64,000 nucleotides of DNA from Anaerolineae bacterium (GTDB lineage Bacteria; Chloroflexota; Anaerolineae; Aggregatilineales; J027): NCBI GenBank assembly GCA_019913005.1, contig JAIOHL010000162.1, positions 1 to 64,000 on the forward strand. The letters are read 5' to 3'. Positions 43,842 to 56,286 of the stretch are shown piece after piece; the first letter of the stretch is position 1; every line of letters begins with the position of its first letter. Below the pieces are notes generated by a model that saw nothing but the letters and a program-made list of their open reading frames with translations, was not told where the DNA came from and did not search any database. A program made the position numbers and the translations under genes.

Positions 43842-46172
43842 CTAGCGCCAATCCGGAAGAAAATCACCCAATGGGTTCATAAGCAAACCAACAACACCAT
43901 CCACTAACCCATATACATAAACCCCAACCACACCTTGCTGATCTCGCTGAAACACAATCCTAGAACCATCCGATGACCAATCAGGAAATTGATCGTCAAA
44001 AATCGCCTCCATCAAGGGACGAACATTCGACCCGTCAGCCTCCATCAAATAAATCTGAAAAAAAGAACCCTCATCCACGTGAAACGCAAGAGACAGTCCA
44101 TCCGGCGACCAAGTGGGGAAGTAGGCATCTCCTAAATCATCCGGCGACAAGAGACGTCCTCCCGTACCATCGGGCCGAATCGCATAGATACGGTACTTAT
44201 TGCGCTCCAACCGATGAAACGCAATCAATGACCCATCCGGTGACCAATCCGGGCCCAAATCGAATGTGTCATTAAACGTAATCTGTACAATTTCGCTCGT
44301 CTCAAAAGAATAGATATAAACCTCAAAATCGCGGCTACCATCTACCTCACCGGGGCGGTTACTATGAAAGGCAAGTCGTGATCCATCCGGCGACCACGTA
44401 ACATAACGGTCATCATCAGAGGGGCTATTGGTCAGATTGATAATGTCACTACCATCCGCGTTCATAACATAAATATCACCATTTCCTGACGCCCCCTCAT
44501 ACGCATAAAAAGCGATGTGTGTGCCATCCGGTGACCAAGCGGGTCCAGTCTCTTGTAGATCGGCGTCTTGAGTAATTTTTTGGACATCCGAACCATCGGG
44601 GTTGACCGTATAAATATCGAGGTTTCCAGAACGGCGCGAAGCAAACGCAATCTTTTGACCACTAAGGTTTGTGTCGCCCGTTGGGACTACTCCGATATCG
44701 GGAGGCGTCGCAGGGCTAGGGGTTACAGTTTCAGGGGTAATGGGCATGGGGGTCACGGAGGGGAAATTTTCATCCGTGCCTGCTTTTCCACCACCACCCT
44801 CACTGCCGAATGGATTTAGGATGTAGAGAGCAATTGCCGCACAGGAAAATAACACCAATGCACCCGTGACAACTCCCCACATCCAATAATTCGGTGTATT
44901 TCTATGAGGAGGTATTATCTCCATGGGGGTAGAAAATTGGGTGGCGCTATTTGGGGCGGATGGCGGAGTGAATGACGGCAGGGTGGGGCTGGCGGCAATC
45001 TGAGGATGAGGGGATGCAATGTAGGTATCAAAACCGAGTTTCGGAGTGGCGATAACCGTGACTTCTTGATGGGATGATCGAGAAGTGTCACGCAGGCGCT
45101 CAGGATGTAATCCAACAGGCGTTACTTCGGCTATGGGAGGTTTCGACGCATCCACAATTGCTGGCACAGGCTCGGTATCATCAGTATCTGTATTATGGGA
45201 CGGCTCAACCGTTGGTGATTTAACAAACTGGGACACTTCAGGGAGGCGTAGCTCATCAGGCACACTGGCAATGTTTAGTTCTGGCGAAATGATACTATCT
45301 GTTTCGAGTGGTGGTGCGCCGAGTGCTTCTGCCATTGCCTCATAAACAGATCGGGCGGACTTTGGACGGCTGCTCGGTTTTTTGGCAAGGCATTGTAGGA
45401 CAACTTCATCTACCGCGTCTGGAATACGGGTTTCATGACGTCGCATGGGAGCGGGGGCGATATAAAGATGTTCATAAGTGATGCGCTCGGAGACTGTTGA
45501 TCCCTGTGCAGCGGGATGCTGTCCACCAAATGGCACAAGCCCCGTCAGCATTTGATAGAGAATTACCCCAAGCGAATAGATATCCGTCTCCGCTGTAATT
45601 CCTTCGTCCAGAATTTGCTCTGGGGCCATATAAATAGGAGTCCCCATTGCCAAACCGAGCGTCGAGAGCATACCGGGGTCATCGAGCAACCGTGCAATGC
45701 CAAAATCGGTTACAAATAATGACCCATTGCGATGGAGTAGGATATTGGCAGGTTTTAGATCACGGTGGATGACATTTTCGTTATGGGCAAAATTGAGAGC
45801 AGCAGTTAGGGGTTTGAGAAATTCCAGTGATTCATAGGGGGTGAGAGGGCGACCCAGATTATAAAGGGTGGTCTGCAAGGTTTCACCCGGCACATAATCC
45901 ATTAAAATGAACACAAGGTCATCGGCTTCAATGAGATCATAATACCGCACAATATTGGGGTGTTGAAGACGGGACAGAACTTCGCCTTCGCGTCGGAAGC
46001 GTTTTACCAAGTGTGGATCATGGGCGATTTCGGGCCGTAGTACCTTCGCCGCTAAATCGACACTACGGCGTGTATCATGCACACGGTAGACTCTAGCAAA
46101 AGTGCCTTCCCCCATATGTGCATCAAAGCGATAATGGCTTGCAATTGTTTGACCCAATAACACATCTGACAT
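43842..46172 (-). CDS. Transmembrane Ser/Thr protein kinase with TolB-like beta-propeller
   Basis: A 776-residue receptor-type kinase. The Hanks kinase domain (about 15-280) has the Gly loop GEGTFARVY, Lys in AAKVLRP (K43), HRDLKPANILL (136-145), DFGIARL and GTPIYMAPEQ. A linker rich in Pro/Ser and a transmembrane helix (MWGVVTGALVLFSCAAIALYIL) follow. Outside are about six TolB/PD40-type propeller blades, e.g. IAFASRRSGNLDIYTVNPDG, PAWSPDGTHIAFY. It probably senses an extracellular ligand and phosphorylates cytoplasmic proteins. The ATG at 46172 has GGAGG eleven bases upstream; an earlier TTG is unlikely. Divergent from the glycosyltransferase gene. Confidence 0.92.
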   Translation of the reverse strand: MSDVLLGQTIASHYRFDAHMGEGTFARVYRVHDTRRSVDLAAKVLRPEIAHDPHLVKRFRREGEVLSRLQHPNIVRYYDLIEADDLVFILMDYVPGETLQTTLYNLGRPLTPYESLEFLKPLTAALNFAHNENVIHRDLKPANILLHRNGSLFVTDFGIARLLDDPGMLSTLGLAMGTPIYMAPEQILDEGITAETDIYSLGVILYQMLTGLVPFGGQHPAAQGSTVSERITYEHLYIAPAPMRRHETRIPDAVDEVVLQCLAKKPSSRPKSARSVYEAMAEALGAPPLETDSIISPELNIASVPDELRLPEVSQFVKSPTVEPSHNTDTDDTEPVPAIVDASKPPIAEVTPVGLHPERLRDTSRSSHQEVTVIATPKLGFDTYIASPHPQIAASPTLPSFTPPSAPNSATQFSTPMEIIPPHRNTPNYWMWGVVTGALVLFSCAAIALYILNPFGSEGGGGKAGTDENFPSVTPMPITPETVTPSPATPPDIGVVPTGDTNLSGQKIAFASRRSGNLDIYTVNPDGSDVQKITQDADLQETGPAWSPDGTHIAFYAYEGASGNGDIYVMNADGSDIINLTNSPSDDDRYVTWSPDGSRLAFHSNRPGEVDGSRDFEVYIYSFETSEIVQITFNDTFDLGPDWSPDGSLIAFHRLERNKYRIYAIRPDGTGGRLLSPDDLGDAYFPTWSPDGLSLAFHVDEGSFFQIYLMEADGSNVRPLMEAIFDDQFPDWSSDGSRIVFQRDQQGVVGVYVYGLVDGVVGLLMNPLGDFLPDWR

Positions 46173-46249
46173 GCGTGTGGCATCCTCCGGCGTTTGTCCC
46201 AACAGAGTGTATTGCGGGTCGTGATACCTGTCAATTGAAAGAGAAATGA

Positions 46250-48189: not shown

Positions 48190-48801
48190 TTATTCGTCAA
48201 GCAGCATGGGGGTAATCCGCCCAGCGGTCAGTTCACGCAGGGCATCGGTAAAAGGGGCTAAATCATTCTCAGCAATGCGCAAAATCAGCAGTATTTCCGC
48301 GCCAAAATCCTCAGATTCGACCTGACAATCATAATTGCTCACAAGGATTTTGACCCGTTCATAAATCGGGTAGGGGATTTCGACCCCGATGGTACGACGA
48401 GTGACTTTGAGTTCGGTTGGCAAGGCGGCGACGGCTTCACGGGCGGTTTGACCATAGGCATGAACCAATCCTCCCGTCCCCAGTTTGGTGCCGCCAAAAT
48501 AGCGCGTGACGACCAATACCACATCCCCCACATTGGCCCCACGAATCACGGCAAGGGTAGGGGGGCCAGCCGTGCCGGAGGGTTCCCCATCATCACTCAT
48601 ACCCTCCGTCACGCTTCCGCCATAACCGATTTTAAAGGCATAGACATGGTGGGTGGCATCCGGCATTTCATTGCGGACGGCCTGTATAAATGCTTTGGCC
48701 TGTTCAACGGTATCGGCACGGCCAATGGTGCCATAAAAGCGCGAATTGGAGACCTGATATTCGATACGGATGCGTGCTTTTGGCACAGGATAGGTAGCCA
48801 T
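48190..48801 (-). CDS. YigZ/IMPACT family protein (UPF0029)
   Basis: A 203-residue protein. The IMPACT signature is clear: SDDGEPSGTAGPPTL, then VVLVVTRYFGGTKLGTGGLVHAYGQTAREAV. A C-terminal ferredoxin-like domain (DUF1949: VEIPYPIYERVKILVSNYDC) follows. The bacterial members are soluble; a link to ribosome or RNA binding has been proposed, without a firm function. It starts six bases after the recJ stop, as last gene of the DNA-repair operon. Confidence 0.9.
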   Translation of the reverse strand: MATYPVPKARIRIEYQVSNSRFYGTIGRADTVEQAKAFIQAVRNEMPDATHHVYAFKIGYGGSVTEGMSDDGEPSGTAGPPTLAVIRGANVGDVVLVVTRYFGGTKLGTGGLVHAYGQTAREAVAALPTELKVTRRTIGVEIPYPIYERVKILVSNYDCQVESEDFGAEILLILRIAENDLAPFTDALRELTAGRITPMLLDE

Positions 48802-48807
48802 AATGGT

Positions 48808-51123
48808 TTATAGAAGTGACTGCGGGTCAACCCGTCGAAGATAATTTCGATAGGCAGCGGATTCGTTCCATGCCTGTTCCAACCGCTGATACAGACTGAC
48901 TTTATCATCAGACAGTTGTGAGGTCGCCGTCAAGGTAATTTTGCCGCGTATTCCAATTTGTACCCCGAACTTGCCGGATGCAGCGAGATATTCAAAGCCC
49001 AATCGAATTACGGCGGGGGATTGCCCAAGCCGCTCCACAAATTGGGTGACGGATGCCTGTCCATCTTGTTGATTCATGACGACCTCTGCCAGCTTACCCA
49101 ATAAGTCCAAATAATCGGAGAGGGTGGTTAATGGCGGGAGGGCAGCTACCCAATAGACCCGACGCGGTTGGACTTTCTCCATCGCCTCAGCTAACCGTTC
49201 GGGGGTAGGGGGGACGGTCAAAATTACCAATGTCTCGGCGGGGAGGAGTTCACTTAATGGCAGACCGGGCGATTGTGATTTTGGAAAACCCTCAGCCCAA
49301 ACTTGCGCGTTTGGATCATCAATCCTTACACGAGCCAATACGTCGGCAGGGGATTCGGCACGGCAATCTAGTATTTCGGGTGGTAGGCGGAGGGTGAGGG
49401 TTGGCGCTTCAATTTGTATCCAATCCTCTAAAACGATTTGCAACTGACGTTCGCCTTTATAAGTCGTGACATCGAGTGTATAGGCTAAATCAAAGCGGCC
49501 TTCGGGTAGAGGCAGGTCGGCGCTGTTCCACCACAAAACCGTTTGACGATATCCAGCGCGGTTTTCAATCGTCAGGCGGCGATGCTGGCTGTCTGCCCCT
49601 AATTTGGCAGCGCTGACGAGGGCAAGGTCACGCGAACGGAAATTGGGAATCGGGTTGCCCTCTCCAAAGGGAGCAAGGCGCTGTAATTGGTAGCCGAAAT
49701 CAAGGGTGAGTTGTCCCCAATCCAACTGGCCCTCAATGAGCAGACTAGGGGGTGGGGCGGTTTTTTTGGTCGCGGCAAAGGCTTGCGAGAGGCGGCGGCG
49801 CAACATGGGCAGGCGTTCGGCTTGAATACCTAATCCACCTGCACCCTCATGTCCGCCATAATTTTCGAGAATGTCGGCCACCCGTGTCAGCGCTTCGCTG
49901 ACCGAATAGCCGGGAGCGCCGCGCACCGACCCGCGTGCAATTCCTTCATCCGTACTGACCAACAACGCAACGGGTTTATGATATTGTTCGGCAAGCTGGC
50001 TGGCGACAATGCCAATCACTCCGCTGTGCCAATTCGGATGGTTCAACACTAGCGCCTCCCATTCCAAAAGCGACGGGTCAGCCTGAATTTGTTCTTGAGC
50101 CGCTTCCAATGTCTGCCGGGTGAGATTACGCCGCTGACGATTAAACCCATCTGCCTGTGCCGCCAAAATTTGAGCGGTGGTGCGGTCCGCGGTGGTTAAT
50201 AATTCAACGGATTTGCGAGCATCATCTAAACGACCCAATGCATTGAGGGGTGGGGCGATGCGAAAGCCGATGTCGATGGAGGTAAGGGTCGAGGGCAGGA
50301 TTTGCAATTGTTCACACAAGGCCAGTAAGCCGACCCGCTGCGTTTGGTGGGCGGCCCGTAAGCCCAATTGCAAGAGATAGCGGGTGTCACGGATAAGGGG
50401 GACGACATCGGCGACCAAACCAAGCGCCACCAAGTCTAAAAATCGGCTGGCGTCGCTTCCCCGTCCGAGCGCATCATAGAGCGCTTTGAGTACCATATAG
50501 CTGACACCGACGCCGGAAAGGGTGTATAGAGGATGATCTTCACGCGGCAGATGATGGACATTTACTAGGGCGTGCGCTTTAGGTAGGTCGGGTAGGAGTT
50601 CATGATGATCCGCGATAATGACCGGAACGCCCTGTGTATTGGCGTAATCCACCGCGTCGTTGGCCGTTGAACCCGTATCACAAATGAGCAGCAAATCTGG
50701 CTTTACGGCTTGAATAAGGGGTTTTAGACGATGTAGTTGGACACCATGCGAATCCGTTTGGCGGGAGGGGATATGGTATTCGACGGTTAAGCCTAAGCGC
50801 CGCAGCCCTTCGACCCACAGTGCTGTTGCCGTCTGCCCATCTACGTCAAAATCCCCCCAGACAAGAATATGCTTATTGCCTTGATTTACCAGCCTTTTAA
50901 AATATTTTACAGCTTTATCCAGATAAGGTAAATCTGAGGGCAGGGCGGGGGCGTAATGCTCGATTGATAGGAAAGATGCGGCACTTTCTGGCGTTCGGAC
51001 ACCGCGTTCGATCAACAAAGTCATTAACTCTGCGGGAAGCGGGCCACCGGGGAGTTCCCAATGCAAATCCGTCGCAACGGACATGGAAAAATCGTGGCTG
51101 TAACGCCATTCTTTACTGGGCAT
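48808..51123 (-). CDS. recJ: Single-stranded-DNA-specific exonuclease RecJ
   Basis: A 771-residue DHH-family nuclease. The metal motifs are in place: VWGDFDVDG (91-96), CDTGST (Asp149), ADHHE (172-174) and GGHEGAGGLGI. The OB-fold follows (QLQRLAPFGEGNPIPNF). A C-terminal extension of about 200 residues makes it longer than the E. coli enzyme (about 577), similar to the size known for Bacillus RecJ. It degrades single-stranded DNA 5' to 3' in recombination and mismatch repair. It begins three bases after the nuclease stop, placing it in one operon with a helicase and a nuclease. The ATG at 51123 is preferred; 51084 is an alternative. Confidence 0.93.
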   Translation of the reverse strand: MPSKEWRYSHDFSMSVATDLHWELPGGPLPAELMTLLIERGVRTPESAASFLSIEHYAPALPSDLPYLDKAVKYFKRLVNQGNKHILVWGDFDVDGQTATALWVEGLRRLGLTVEYHIPSRQTDSHGVQLHRLKPLIQAVKPDLLLICDTGSTANDAVDYANTQGVPVIIADHHELLPDLPKAHALVNVHHLPREDHPLYTLSGVGVSYMVLKALYDALGRGSDASRFLDLVALGLVADVVPLIRDTRYLLQLGLRAAHQTQRVGLLALCEQLQILPSTLTSIDIGFRIAPPLNALGRLDDARKSVELLTTADRTTAQILAAQADGFNRQRRNLTRQTLEAAQEQIQADPSLLEWEALVLNHPNWHSGVIGIVASQLAEQYHKPVALLVSTDEGIARGSVRGAPGYSVSEALTRVADILENYGGHEGAGGLGIQAERLPMLRRRLSQAFAATKKTAPPPSLLIEGQLDWGQLTLDFGYQLQRLAPFGEGNPIPNFRSRDLALVSAAKLGADSQHRRLTIENRAGYRQTVLWWNSADLPLPEGRFDLAYTLDVTTYKGERQLQIVLEDWIQIEAPTLTLRLPPEILDCRAESPADVLARVRIDDPNAQVWAEGFPKSQSPGLPLSELLPAETLVILTVPPTPERLAEAMEKVQPRRVYWVAALPPLTTLSDYLDLLGKLAEVVMNQQDGQASVTQFVERLGQSPAVIRLGFEYLAASGKFGVQIGIRGKITLTATSQLSDDKVSLYQRLEQAWNESAAYRNYLRRVDPQSLL

Positions 51124-51126
51124 GGG

Positions 51127-51945
51127 CTAAAACTCCACCGCTGAAGGGTTGCTTTCCAAATTGCCAAGACCCCAATAGTCCTCAAGATCAGTTTCGTCCG
51201 GCGGGACAGAAGGGCTTTGACCACGACCACATAAGCCGCGATAGAGACAAAATCGGCAACGGGTGACATCTTCGGTCAGTGCAAAATCCGAGGTCTGGAC
51301 GGCTTCAATCACGCTACGGATATGCGCTTCATATAATGCAACTGAGTGTTCATCTACTGAAAATAAGCGGGTCTCACCCGTCGGAATTTGAATATATTGC
51401 AGGGCCATTTTTTCGATGGGCCGTCCGACCAGCCGCGCCGCTTCCCGATACAGCACCAGCAGATAGACGACCGTCTGCATCCGCTGGCCCAGTCGCACCA
51501 TGTCGGGTAGGCGTCCCGTTTTCCAATCCAGTGTCATAACCGCATTGTCGCGCAAGGTAATCAGGTCAAATTTTGCGAGAACCGAACAGCCTGCGACGGT
51601 GGCCGAAAGCGAAACCTCGGGCCATGTTTTTTCAAATGACCCAAGCTCGTTGAAAATTTCCTGATAGCGCCGCAACCATGTCTCTAGTGTGGAATCCCCC
51701 GCCACACTGGACTGCAAGACCTCCAATGACATACCAAGTTGATGGCGCTGCACCATCTGATGAAATCTCGCGCCGCGATCAAGGGCCTGCTCGACTTCCG
51801 ATTGCGGTTCGGCGAGGGGTGACGGCCAACGCTGTTGCTGGATATGGGCTAAATAAAATCGGCGCGGACATTCCACAAAATCTTGCAGACGCGATTGGGT
51901 GTAATGAAAATCCGGTGGAAATTGCACTTGATTAGGCGTCGCCAT
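51127..51945 (-). CDS. Stand-alone PD-(D/E)XK nuclease with probable 4Fe-4S cluster (RecB/Cas4-like)
   Basis: A 272-residue protein of the RecB/Cas4 nuclease superfamily. N-terminal SRLQDFVECPRRFYLAHI matches the QxxxY-type entry helix with a cluster Cys; the core contains an Asp in VLAKFDLIT and the LDWKTGRLPD motif (D-x-K); the C-terminus has CRFCLYRGLC, a C-x2-C-x5-C cluster. That is the layout of the nuclease domain fused to AddB, but here alone. The ATG at 51945 overlaps the helicase gene by 14 bases; earlier in-frame starts would read deeper into it. It should cut DNA with a helicase partner. Confidence 0.85.
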   Translation of the reverse strand: MATPNQVQFPPDFHYTQSRLQDFVECPRRFYLAHIQQQRWPSPLAEPQSEVEQALDRGARFHQMVQRHQLGMSLEVLQSSVAGDSTLETWLRRYQEIFNELGSFEKTWPEVSLSATVAGCSVLAKFDLITLRDNAVMTLDWKTGRLPDMVRLGQRMQTVVYLLVLYREAARLVGRPIEKMALQYIQIPTGETRLFSVDEHSVALYEAHIRSVIEAVQTSDFALTEDVTRCRFCLYRGLCGRGQSPSVPPDETDLEDYWGLGNLESNPSAVEF

Positions 51946-54202
51946 TGATGACCTCACGTAGATGATACAGTGGGACGGCGGGCTGCTTGACAAAATTACC
52001 GCCGCGCTCCCAATAGCGCCCCACATTCCATGTAATACTCAAATCCGACTTAGCACGGGTGATACCGACATAGAGTAGGCGCAGGCGTTCGGCGGCGTAG
52101 TCAATACGGGCTTGTTGAGAGGCGGGGCCGGGTTCGTAATTATCAGGGCGCTTGTTCATTAAGGCATCTAATTGGGCCAAGACCTCGGCATCAAGATTGA
52201 GGTTATCTCGAATAAAACGTTTTTCACCCAGATACTCCTCATAATCGAGCGCCGAGGGGAAACTGTAATTGTTGACCGCCATCAGATAGACCCGATCCCA
52301 TTCCAGCCCTTTCGCGGCGTGCATGGTGCTGACAGTGATTATCCCCGGCTTCGGAGCATAACCTGTTTCGGCATCGTCAAAGCCGATAAATTTGCGCTGA
52401 TTTTCGCTGATCTGGCGGAGTTCTTCGGCGAGGTCGGGTAAGCGCCAAGTGGGATTGGATTGGGCAATACTTCGCATCAACACCGCGATTTTATAGGTCA
52501 GGGCAATGTCGGTAGGGTCGGTGAAAAGGTCTTGCCCGATGGTGAGCAGCAATTGGTCAATTGGCAGACTGAGCGCCGACAGCCAACGCCGGATGAGGGT
52601 AATAAACCTGTCCAGATTTTCATGATAGTCGTCGGGGAGTTCCAAATCTAGCGCAAGTGTCCAATCCCCACCAACAGGCCAGATAAAATCTTCGGGCTGT
52701 TTGTGCCGATGCAGCGCCTTTTGAATTTGGATAATCGGCCCCTCAGCATCTTCGATTTCCTCCCCATCAAAATACATGAGCACCCATACATCCCGGTAGA
52801 CGGAGGCGAGGAGTGGGCTACTGCGCGGATTGGAGAGATAGATCAGGGCTGTGCGTAATAGCCCCGCCGTCGCACGGGTCTCGGTGGTGCTGCGAAGAAG
52901 CTCCTCATAGGGCAAACCTGCCTCTTGCAGCAATTGGGTTAATTGAAACCCCCGACTGTTCTCCGGTACAAGCACAGCTACCGTTCTATCTGGATTTTCC
53001 GGCAGCCATTTTTGCAGTGAGGCCAGCACCACCTTAAGTTCGTCGTCCGGGTTGAGACGACGGTCAAAAGGATAGATATATAACGTTGAGGCGGCATCTG
53101 GTGGATTGGCTTGAACATCCCCCGGTTCAGTCGGCAAGATGTCTTGCGGATAAAAAGCACTCCGCAATTCCATTACCGGATGTTGATCGGTTGTCCAGCG
53201 CACGAGTTCATTGGCTAATCTGATAATTTTGCGCGACGAACGACCTGATGTATTTAAGGGGCGATCTTTGACATCGGGATTCGCAAGGAAATTTCGCAAA
53301 AACTGCGGATTGGCACTGGTGAAGGTGGTGTTAATGGCTTGATTGGGGTCGCCCACCCGCACCCAATTTTTACCACCCGTCAGCAGCCACAACATTTTTT
53401 CTTGGAGCAAGCTACTATCTTGGGCCTCATCCTCCAAAATATACGGCCAGCGATCTTGCAGTCGCTCCAAATATTGGGCATCCGTTTGGAGGGCCGTCAG
53501 TGCCAGCCGAACCAAATCTTGGAAGTCCACCGCGCCGCGATAGGCCAAACTGCGCTGATAATCTTGATAGACGGCGGTTGCAAAACGGGATAAATCAAAT
53601 ATGGCATCCGGATTTTCGAGCGCAATGAGCAAATCTTCGGGCGTAATCTGCATTTCTTTGGCGCGGCTGATAAATCGGTCAACGAGGTCTATGAGGAGTT
53701 CGGGCAGGTCTTTGTTCATGACTACCTTCTCATAGCGTTCTTCCACCTCTTCGCTCAAAATCCAGCGCAACCGCTCACGCCATTCAGAATAATGGGCCGT
53801 CACGGTATCACGGCGAATAGCATAAGCCACACGGTCATCCACGATACGAAAATCTTCGGCTAATCCAACCAATGCAGGCCGTTCACGGACAATATCATGA
53901 GCCAGACCATGTAAGGTACGCACACGATAACCCGTATAGGGCAGCAAACCGCGCTCTTGTTCCAAAATGGCGGCGATACGATTTTTAAAGCTGTTGACGG
54001 CGGCATTGGCAAAGGTCACGATCAACACTTCTTGATCGCGTCCAGCCCGCCGATTGCTTAATTTTTGTACCAGTGCAGCAGCAAGATGGGACAAAGTGAA
54101 GGTTTTACCAGAACCGGGGACAGCCGCTACACCCATCAAACCCCGCGAATAGCTGATGATGTCAAACTGGGATGCGCGAAATTTAAAAGGGGTCTTGCTC
54201 AC
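51932..54202 (-). CDS. UvrD/PcrA-like superfamily 1 DNA helicase
   Basis: A 756-residue SF1A helicase. The Q-motif (RASQFDII), Walker A (AAVPGSGKTFTLS, K33), motif Ia (LIVTFANAAVNSFKNRI), DEAQDSS (motif II), GDPNQAINTTF (III), TVSTMHAAKGLEWDRVYLM (V) and LLYVGITRAKSDLSITW (VI) are all present, so it should be an active 3'-to-5' translocase. It has the length of UvrD, without the C-terminal nuclease of AddA. It begins inside the previous gene (ATGA overlap, four bases). Confidence 0.9.
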   Translation of the reverse strand: MSKTPFKFRASQFDIISYSRGLMGVAAVPGSGKTFTLSHLAAALVQKLSNRRAGRDQEVLIVTFANAAVNSFKNRIAAILEQERGLLPYTGYRVRTLHGLAHDIVRERPALVGLAEDFRIVDDRVAYAIRRDTVTAHYSEWRERLRWILSEEVEERYEKVVMNKDLPELLIDLVDRFISRAKEMQITPEDLLIALENPDAIFDLSRFATAVYQDYQRSLAYRGAVDFQDLVRLALTALQTDAQYLERLQDRWPYILEDEAQDSSLLQEKMLWLLTGGKNWVRVGDPNQAINTTFTSANPQFLRNFLANPDVKDRPLNTSGRSSRKIIRLANELVRWTTDQHPVMELRSAFYPQDILPTEPGDVQANPPDAASTLYIYPFDRRLNPDDELKVVLASLQKWLPENPDRTVAVLVPENSRGFQLTQLLQEAGLPYEELLRSTTETRATAGLLRTALIYLSNPRSSPLLASVYRDVWVLMYFDGEEIEDAEGPIIQIQKALHRHKQPEDFIWPVGGDWTLALDLELPDDYHENLDRFITLIRRWLSALSLPIDQLLLTIGQDLFTDPTDIALTYKIAVLMRSIAQSNPTWRLPDLAEELRQISENQRKFIGFDDAETGYAPKPGIITVSTMHAAKGLEWDRVYLMAVNNYSFPSALDYEEYLGEKRFIRDNLNLDAEVLAQLDALMNKRPDNYEPGPASQQARIDYAAERLRLLYVGITRAKSDLSITWNVGRYWERGGNFVKQPAVPLYHLREVINGDA

Positions 54203-56286
54203 GCCGATACTCCTGTTGTACCATAGGATCGTAAGACTTGTTGAAAAACTCGCAGCAATGGGCCGCGTTGCTCAAAACCCTGTTCCCCCAAATCCGCGAT
54301 GGCGAGATAAAGTTGTTTGCCGCAGCGCCGCGTCAAACCGAGGATCAATTTACGCAGCATCGTCCATTCCGCTTGAAATTCATCTTCATCCAGCCAAACC
54401 CTATCCATATCATAGGAACGCCGCAGCACATAGGGGTGGGTAATGGGTTGGTCGAGTCGTTCCGACCATGCTGAACTGCCCACATCCAACCAGAATTGAT
54501 ACTCTACTGGACGATTGCGCATCAGGTACGTGTAGGCCGGAGCGATAAACATGGCGTTGGCCTCTTCCTTATGCCAGCTTTCTTCATGCAGTGCCGCCAG
54601 TAATCCCTCACTGACTAGGGTACGATATTCGACCCAGACCGACGACCAATCATCGGTACCGTCGGGATACAACACACGGCGGAATTGTTGGGCCGATTCT
54701 ACCAATTGCGCGGCGATTGTACCCGCGTCCAAATGGGTATGAAAGCCAAAGCCGGGTTGCGACAACACGTCCCCAAAAAGACGGCGCAGAAAGTGGTCAG
54801 GCGGGGTTTGGGCGACGGTTTCACGCTGATCCATTAGCCAAGTGCGTAACTGCTCATAGCGTTCGCCCACGACGTAGGTAATACGGCTTTGCATCGTCTG
54901 TTGGATGGCATCAAATGATCCTATCTCACTACGGCCCGTCGCTCCATAGACCACATCTGCCAACAGCCGTCCACGTATCGGGTCAAGATTGGCAATGACT
55001 TGTACTAGCGCATCAGCGGTATCCGGTGCAGGCGGCAGTTGGTCAGCGGGTTGATTCACCAATGCCATAAGGGTCAGCATCGCCCGTGCCGCCGGTTCGT
55101 CACGAATTGCCCGCGACGGACGATGCGATACAACGGGAATCCCGGCTGTCTGCAACCGATTCATCACCGTAAATCGCAGTGAATCATTGAGGTAGGGCGC
55201 TAACATGACAATTTGGCGGGGCTCGACCCCCGATTCTACCAATTGAATGGCTTCATCACAGGCCCAATTCAACATCTGGGGATAGAAGGTGCGAAAGTCA
55301 TACGTAAACGCCTCAAAGGGGGAGGGATCAAGTTCAGGCAACGGAGTATCACTCAAATCATCATCGCTGAAAATAGAGTCCAGCGCCGTTGATAATGATT
55401 GCAGCGGTTCACTTTGGATGTGTGAGCTATCCCATACTACATGATCATCACATAAGGTCTGCAATTGGGCAGCTTGGAGAGGTTCAGCGCCGAGAAACAC
55501 CCGATAGCCAGCATCACTGTCCATGACCAACAAAGCACTTTCTAAGACTGGTAGACGAGATTCGATAAAGTCCAATGTCACGGGGAAGTTCTCTTCAATG
55601 TTATCCGCAATGAGATGGTGATAGGTTTGGTTCAGATAGGTCTGATACAGCGGATTATGTAACAGGTGGTCGTTAAACACATCCAATTGCAGCGAAAAAT
55701 CCAACAAATGGTTGTCTAGGCAATGCTGGCGAAATTCGCGGGCTACTTCTAACCATGTCTGATAAATAGCGAGACGGCTAGAATGCCCGCTCCATGCCCG
55801 TGACAACCGCAAGGCCACATCATCCAACGAAAATTCATTGATAGCAGCTTTGGAAAGATTGTCGAGCGCTTGGGCAATCAGGCGGGGGCGGGCGACATTA
55901 ATGCTATCAAAAAGAGCTTGTTCAACGGCACGATCAACAAAACGGGCCATATAATATTGCGCCGTCTCAATCGTTAGAAAAATCGGTTCGTGGCCTTCCG
56001 CATTCACAAAGCCCGCTGCTGTCGCAATTTCCGGCCAAAAAAGTTGGATGCCCCGTCGAGCCAGACCACCAAAAGTGGCTATATCCACTCCTGCCGCATC
56101 GGGCCAATCGGGATTAGAGGCAGCGAGTTGATAGGGTCGGCCTAAAGTACGCTGGGGAACTAACACAAGGATAGATTCTGGCCGCACTCCCTCCTGTAAA
56201 AGACGATGCAGATATTCAACGGCATAGGTGGTTTTTCCAGTACCCGCCGGGCCTTCCAAAAATCGCCGCAAAGTAACCGCCTCCAT
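54199..56286 (-). CDS. AddB-like P-loop protein
   Basis: A 695-residue protein with a P-loop at the N-terminus (EGPAGTGKTTYAVEYL), a motif II-like LIADNIEE, motif III-like VMDSDAGYRVFLG, an IVMLAPYLNDSLRF segment and a motif VI-like LTRRCGKQLYLA. This is the layout of the AddB/RexB half of helicase-nuclease complexes: a SF1-like fold with motifs kept only in part. AddB normally has a C-terminal Fe-S nuclease of about 250 residues; here the protein ends before it, and a matching nuclease is encoded two genes on. The first gene of the operon. Its helicase activity is doubtful; Walker A suggests ATP binding. Confidence 0.72.
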   Translation of the reverse strand: MEAVTLRRFLEGPAGTGKTTYAVEYLHRLLQEGVRPESILVLVPQRTLGRPYQLAASNPDWPDAAGVDIATFGGLARRGIQLFWPEIATAAGFVNAEGHEPIFLTIETAQYYMARFVDRAVEQALFDSINVARPRLIAQALDNLSKAAINEFSLDDVALRLSRAWSGHSSRLAIYQTWLEVAREFRQHCLDNHLLDFSLQLDVFNDHLLHNPLYQTYLNQTYHHLIADNIEENFPVTLDFIESRLPVLESALLVMDSDAGYRVFLGAEPLQAAQLQTLCDDHVVWDSSHIQSEPLQSLSTALDSIFSDDDLSDTPLPELDPSPFEAFTYDFRTFYPQMLNWACDEAIQLVESGVEPRQIVMLAPYLNDSLRFTVMNRLQTAGIPVVSHRPSRAIRDEPAARAMLTLMALVNQPADQLPPAPDTADALVQVIANLDPIRGRLLADVVYGATGRSEIGSFDAIQQTMQSRITYVVGERYEQLRTWLMDQRETVAQTPPDHFLRRLFGDVLSQPGFGFHTHLDAGTIAAQLVESAQQFRRVLYPDGTDDWSSVWVEYRTLVSEGLLAALHEESWHKEEANAMFIAPAYTYLMRNRPVEYQFWLDVGSSAWSERLDQPITHPYVLRRSYDMDRVWLDEDEFQAEWTMLRKLILGLTRRCGKQLYLAIADLGEQGFEQRGPLLRVFQQVLRSYGTTGVSA

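Follow-up and report, generated by a model that had tools for sequence, protein, structure and literature searches.

To our knowledge, all well-studied bacterial end-resection complexes have at least one nuclease fused to a helicase chain. The locus described here lies in a 64-kb window (i.e. the whole stretch of DNA that was analyzed) from a genome of the Anaerolineae (Chloroflexota) comprising 7.6 Mb in 365 contigs. With modest confidence, we read the locus as a cassette for an AddAB-like DNA-end resection system in separate chains.

Gene content and motif states of the cassette

The ORF list of the window contains five minus-strand ORFs at 48190-56286 which overlap or nearly touch each other, confirming the five tightly packed genes reported in a preliminary description of this DNA. 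They encode (i) AddBl (54199-56286, minus strand; 695 aa), an SF1 pseudo-helicase with an AddB-like fold and no nuclease domain; (ii) Hel (51932-54202, minus strand; 756 aa, GTG start), a UvrD/PcrA-type SF1A helicase, also without a nuclease domain; (iii) Nuc (51127-51945, minus strand; 272 aa), a stand-alone predicted Fe-S PD-(D/E)XK nuclease; (iv) RecJ (48808-51123, minus strand; 771 aa), which continues at its C-terminus for about 200 aa past the RecJ model; and (v) a YigZ/IMPACT family protein (48190-48801, minus strand; 203 aa), probably a passenger. AddBl and Hel overlap by 4 bases, and Hel and Nuc by 14 bases when Nuc is counted from the ATG at 51945; gaps of 3 and 6 bases separate Nuc from RecJ and RecJ from YigZ, respectively. 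The longest nuc ORF begins at 52026 and would yield 299 aa; the ATG at 51945, which is common to relatives, is most likely the start. This gene arrangement is not due to chance, since numerous families of the Anaerolineae share it and a plasmid of Salinibacter has it as well. The genes flanking the cassette in the window are ordinary. At 43842-46202, the window encodes a Ser/Thr-kinase-like protein whose C-terminal repeats resemble, by eye, a TolB-type propeller; kinase-like genes were also seen near the cassette in other relatives.

Hel matched the Pfam UvrD-helicase model with 146 bits (cut-off 23) as well as UvrD_C, and its motifs I-VI are intact in 11 of 11 aligned homologues, with conservative changes only. 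Hel is presumed to be a 3′-to-5′ motor. Pfam detected no PDDEXK domain in Hel, and its score against addA_Gpos (72.8 bits) was below the cut-off of 707.65. Nuc reached 81 bits for PDDEXK_1 (cut-off 22), which fits far better than Cas_Cas4 (19.4 bits, under the cut-off of 22.7). With a nuclease-free UvrD-type helicase and a stand-alone PDDEXK_1 protein given by Pfam and NCBIfam, the earlier view that motor, AddB-like protein, and nuclease are separate chains was borne out. Six residues of Nuc (His62, Asp127, Asp140, Lys142, Gln157, and Tyr161) are kept in 17 of 17 homologues, as are Cys26, Cys230, and Cys233, while Cys239 is found in 16 of 17. The Cys-x2-Cys-x5-Cys motif noted previously is thus present (Cys230-x2-Cys233-x5-Cys239); together with one more cysteine near the N-terminus (Cys26), it makes up a four-cysteine pattern of the AddB kind. 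The structure model of Nuc (pLDDT 80) resembles Cas4-family proteins, AdnA, and AddB.

Family matches of AddBl were all sub-threshold, including those to Pfam UvrD-helicase (21 bits) and, using a single-sequence HMM, to ADDB_N (15.1 bits, below the cut-off of 26.6). Its AlphaFold model (pLDDT 87, pTM 0.82) displays a complete SF1A helicase fold. In VIA-align comparisons with this model, AdnB was superimposed over 603-615 residues (Z 23.6-24.4, 4.2-4.4 Å) and residues 2-697 of AddB over about 610 residues (Z 22.6-23.1, about 5.9 Å); UvrD-like helicases reached higher Z values (25-29), but at approximately 10 Å. Residues 2-697 are the half of AddB ahead of its nuclease, and the AddBl chain stops where that nuclease starts. 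Walker A is invariant in 36 of 36 AddBl sequences (from Anaerolineae, Salinibacter, and Ilyobacter), and the catalytic Glu of motif II is lost in all 36, being replaced by Asn in 32 and by His in 4; AddBl has D-N-x-E-E at this motif. Given these two motif states, AddBl should bind nucleotide and have no motor activity. Glu129 of B. subtilis AddB, a residue of the ionic latch, aligns with Asn143 of AddBl, beside the invariant Asp142, in a profile alignment that covers this side of the latch (the other side lies in domain 2A).

Relation to AddAB and other helicase-nuclease systems

The cassette resembles AddAB in several respects: an SF1A motor combined with an inactivated helicase partner whose Walker A is intact, a PD-(D/E)XK nuclease with an N-terminal Cys and a C-terminal Cys cluster (Fe-S), and a gene order in which the pseudo-helicase precedes the motor. 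It differs from AddAB in that its only AddAB-type nuclease is a separate chain, with Hel lacking a nuclease domain, in that it remains below all AddA/AddB family thresholds, in the presence of RecJ in the operon, and in motif II of AddBl. AdnAB also pairs an active with an inactive UvrD-like subunit, and AdnB is among the best structural matches of AddBl; however, both AdnAB subunits are nuclease-fused, whereas neither AddBl nor Hel is. RecBCD likewise combines a motor with a helicase-like subunit that is inactivated (RecC) and with just one nuclease domain, but it has a second motor (RecD), and its nuclease is fused to RecB.

Profile comparisons were based on local families of 18 AddB and 16 AddA sequences. 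With deep profiles, AddBl was nearest to the helicase-like half of AddB (score 143, versus 78 for PcrA, 77 for Hel, and 63 for AddA), and Nuc was nearest to the AddB nuclease (106, versus 52 for the AddA nuclease). At equal depth (two sequences per profile), the lead of AddB was gone for AddBl (34-76, versus 78 for PcrA), whereas Nuc was still nearest to AddB (42-71, versus 26-45 for AddA). The deep profiles suggested a clear descent of AddBl from AddB, a conclusion that the equal-depth comparison did not sustain. The earlier label 'AddB-like' holds with regard to fold and deep profile comparison and fails with regard to ADDB_N and the depth-equalized profiles. On present evidence, the cassette would work like AddAB; it falls short of the AddAB membership thresholds, and descent from AddAB is no more than a possibility.

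Hel was closer to PcrA (320) than to AddA (198-262) at equal depth. This speaks for a rather unlikely alternative, according to which the operon encodes repair enzymes that are related in function but act independently (a helicase like PcrA or UvrD, an exonuclease like Cas4, a helicase-like protein that binds nucleotide, and RecJ) and form no AddAB-like machine. Operons with UvrD-like and unfused Cas4-like genes have indeed been noted, mostly in Clostridiales, where their surroundings do not point to defence (Hudaiberdiev et al. 2017; PMC5704561). Like the cassette, these predicted operons combine a UvrD-like helicase with an unfused pfam12705 nuclease in a repair-like context; they are set apart by description only, as a third helicase-like subunit and RecJ are unmentioned. 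Evidence against independent enzymes comes from AddBl: as the catalytic Glu is lost in all sequences, AddBl cannot plausibly act alone, which fits a partner subunit.

The genome of the window also carries ordinary, full-length AddA (on contig C5; 1199 aa, ending in a nuclease domain) and AddB (on contig C354; 1118 aa, with ADDB_N, matched at 87.1 bits, and an Fe-S nuclease), so that the cassette is a second system in this genome. The preliminary description had made its case dependent on there being no addAB elsewhere in the genome, which is not what was found, and replacement of AddAB by the cassette is ruled out here. Contamination is an unlikely origin of the resident AddA and AddB, since four sister genomes have both. 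The two genes are not adjacent in the genus of the window (L034:7749-11105 and L035:3280-6879); in the sister genome G003, they lie approximately 150 kb apart on one contig, and they are neighbours in most related genomes.

Distribution within and beyond the Anaerolineae

Of 41 relatives, 36 had AddBl, as did 16 of 18 additional members of the Anaerolineae; three of the five AddBl-negative relatives have a partial Hel left on another contig. No AddBl was found in a 151-genome sample of other Chloroflexota classes, where the matches obtained reached no more than 20-41 bits and were to helicase-like proteins of other kinds. Among 121 Anaerolineae genomes with a completeness of at least 92%, AddBl and Hel were each present in 72, and these were exactly the same 72 (Fisher p 5e-35, uncorrected for relatedness and hence overstated, as related genomes are not independent). 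The co-occurrence is strengthened by the joint retention of the genes even where they are unlinked. In six genomes (G236, G144, G043, G176, G217, and G289), long distances or contig boundaries separate them, yet none is missing: in G236, a single contig bears AddBl at 2.2 Mb, Hel at 0.2 Mb, and Nuc at 1.03 Mb, and in G144 and G043 (single contig) Nuc is more than 100 kb away. The cassette is not a degenerate copy: AddBl and Hel share the same genomes even where they are scattered over a closed chromosome. While the unlinked genes of several families would agree with independent repair enzymes, the fact that AddBl and Hel are never apart in the 121 genomes argues against them. G120 and G038 contain no AddBl, Hel, or operon-type Nuc.

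Nuc co-occurs strongly with this pair: a Nuc-type solo nuclease is present in 62 of the 72 cassette genomes (count of rows). Five of the remaining 10 have an operon that is fragmented or cut by a contig end (checked for G251 and G264, judged by coordinates for G212, and presumed for G263 and G284). In the other five (G023, G184, G241, G270, and G280; genus g42 among them), Nuc was not detected and contig ends provide no explanation. A solo nuclease also occurs in one genome without the cassette (G193), but its score against the Nuc profile is just 42 bits, compared with 131-415 for most cassette Nucs.

At an E-value of 1e-14, 26 of the 121 genomes have both cassette and AddB, 46 the cassette with no AddB detected, 12 only AddB, and 37 neither. 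Presence of the two is uncorrelated (p 0.23), and strict alternation of cassette and AddAB is not seen. The 26 genomes with both, that of the window included, would suit a lineage-specific AddAB duplicate that was split and kept for redundancy only. We regard such a duplicate as very improbable, given the missing correlation, the extreme sequence divergence between AddBl and the resident AddB, and the constraint to which every key residue is still subject. Moreover, several near-complete genomes have the cassette with no detected AddA/AddB/RecB-type fusion: a PDDEXK_1 search at E 1e-3, positive for the E. coli and B. subtilis controls, revealed no fused helicase-nuclease frame in the cassette-bearing G144 (single contig) and G080, nor in G088, G096, G104, G136, and G152. 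In some members of the class, a UvrD-like helicase is fused to a PDDEXK_1 nuclease within a further frame of 930-990 aa (L122:362-3316; G270 C152; G277 C267); this frame possibly corresponds to the UvrD-Cas4 fusions of PMC5704561.

RecJ of the window matched TIGR00644 with 432.3 bits (cut-off 396.9). It adjoins Nuc or Hel in several Anaerolineae families, although it is not linked to the cassette in all lineages; in G217, RecJ is still beside Nuc even though AddBl and Hel have moved away. The YigZ protein (185 bits for TIGR00257, cut-off 168) follows RecJ in some families.

Outside the class, AddBl-Hel-Nuc-RecJ are encoded in cassette order and without yigZ on pSR56, a plasmid of the Rhodothermota member Salinibacter ruber M8. 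Identities to the cassette are 39% for AddBl (annotated as hypothetical protein), 40% for Hel, 37% for Nuc, and 36% for RecJ, over nearly the full length. The four genes have thus been transferred as a unit between phyla. The repeated order supports the earlier claim that RecJ belongs with the unit, and on the basis of this plasmid we include RecJ in the cassette and exclude YigZ, which looks incidental. Ahead of the pSR56 cassette (L124:8059-9928) are genes for an XRE-family regulator and a small PIN-like hypothetical protein, possibly a toxin-antitoxin or regulatory pair. A lone, very divergent AddBl (21% identity) with the D-N of motif II retained was found on megaplasmid pILYOP01 of Ilyobacter polytropus (L125:12001-13974), with no helicase or nuclease partner alongside.

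The location on a plasmid, behind genes for a regulator of the XRE type and for a small protein annotated as hypothetical, is one of three points in favour of an anti-phage or anti-plasmid defence that degrades incoming DNA ends, like Gabija or like RecBCD on unprotected ends. The others are that RecBCD-type machines attack phage DNA and that the best PADLOC models for Hel were those of GajB (134 bits), which is also a UvrD-like helicase. We nevertheless consider defence improbable. No OLD/TOPRIM nuclease of the GajA type is among the five products of the operon, Nuc being of the Cas4/AddB kind, and the neighbours in the window are ordinary. AddBl found no good match among the defence families of the PADLOC models and was not found on phage or viral contigs, and the broad, single-copy distribution of the cassette within the class is unlike that of patchy defence genes. 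The possible role in phage defence put forward in the preliminary description thus gained no specific support.

Proposed mode of action and significance

Resection by AddAB of B. subtilis is powered by a single SF1A motor. Of the two nucleases, that of AddA cuts the 3′ strand up to Chi and that of AddB the 5′ strand, while the inactivated helicase domain of AddB scans for Chi (PMC4824097). By analogy, Hel would be a 3′-to-5′ motor entering on the 3′-ended strand, and AddBl its nucleotide-binding, non-motor partner, which might hold or guide single strands in the way known for the corresponding half of AddB. Nuc would be the detached equivalent of the AddB Fe-S nuclease and would cleave the 5′-ended strand. 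RecJ, which has 5′-to-3′ polarity and classically acts in the RecF pathway, would complete digestion of this strand. The cassette has no equivalent of the AddA nuclease, which cuts the 3′ strand, so it is predicted always to leave a 3′ overhang for RecA, with no need to switch such a nuclease off first. We infer these strand and subunit roles, as well as the physical complex and the role in repair, by homology and from the missing AddA-type nuclease.

The resection reading is supported by motif states that fit a motor, a dead partner, and a live nuclease, by an AddBl fold corresponding to the helicase-like half of AddB or AdnB, by a Nuc nearer to the AddB than to the AddA nuclease, by the joint occurrence of AddBl and Hel even where unlinked, and by the four-gene set on pSR56. 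It is weakened by the failure of AddBl against ADDB_N, by an equal-depth closeness to AddB no better than that to PcrA, by the five of 72 cassette genomes in which no Nuc was detected and no contig end accounts for this, by a RecJ linkage that is not universal, and by the AddAB of the window's own genome. Of the tripartite or four-part end-resection machine envisaged earlier, AddAB-like parts with a separate nuclease and RecJ within the unit were retained, whereas its standing as the sole such machine of the genome was not.

No description of the three- or four-part cassette or of its pSR56 copy was found in the open-licence literature, and the cassette, which is real and conserved, is a variant of helicase-nuclease resection machines that apparently had not been described. 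Its parts are ordinary; unusual are the unfused chains, the link to RecJ, and the inheritance pattern. As a tentative proposal, which we hold to be possible but doubtful, it could constitute a further resection family beside RecBCD, AddAB, and AdnAB, with four subunits, action on the 5′ strand only, no Chi-like switch, a place as sole machine in many Anaerolineae, and mobility as an interphylum cassette. A naturally unfused set would allow motor, guide, and nuclease to be assayed one by one. It is also the only AddAB-like set detected in many members of a large, little-studied class, its gene order ties RecJ to an AddAB-type set, and it raises the question of whether Chi control is needed by a machine that cuts the 5′ strand only.

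Members of family f3 encode, directly upstream of AddBl, another stand-alone PD-(D/E)XK nuclease that has the Cys pattern but differs from Nuc, giving the order nuc2-AddBl-Hel-Nuc (nuc2 at L030:477-1472, L024:3232-4251, and L032:2051-3076, as well as in G011 C48:122289-123158 and G018 C6:72567-73451). This additional nuclease could restore a two-nuclease layout.
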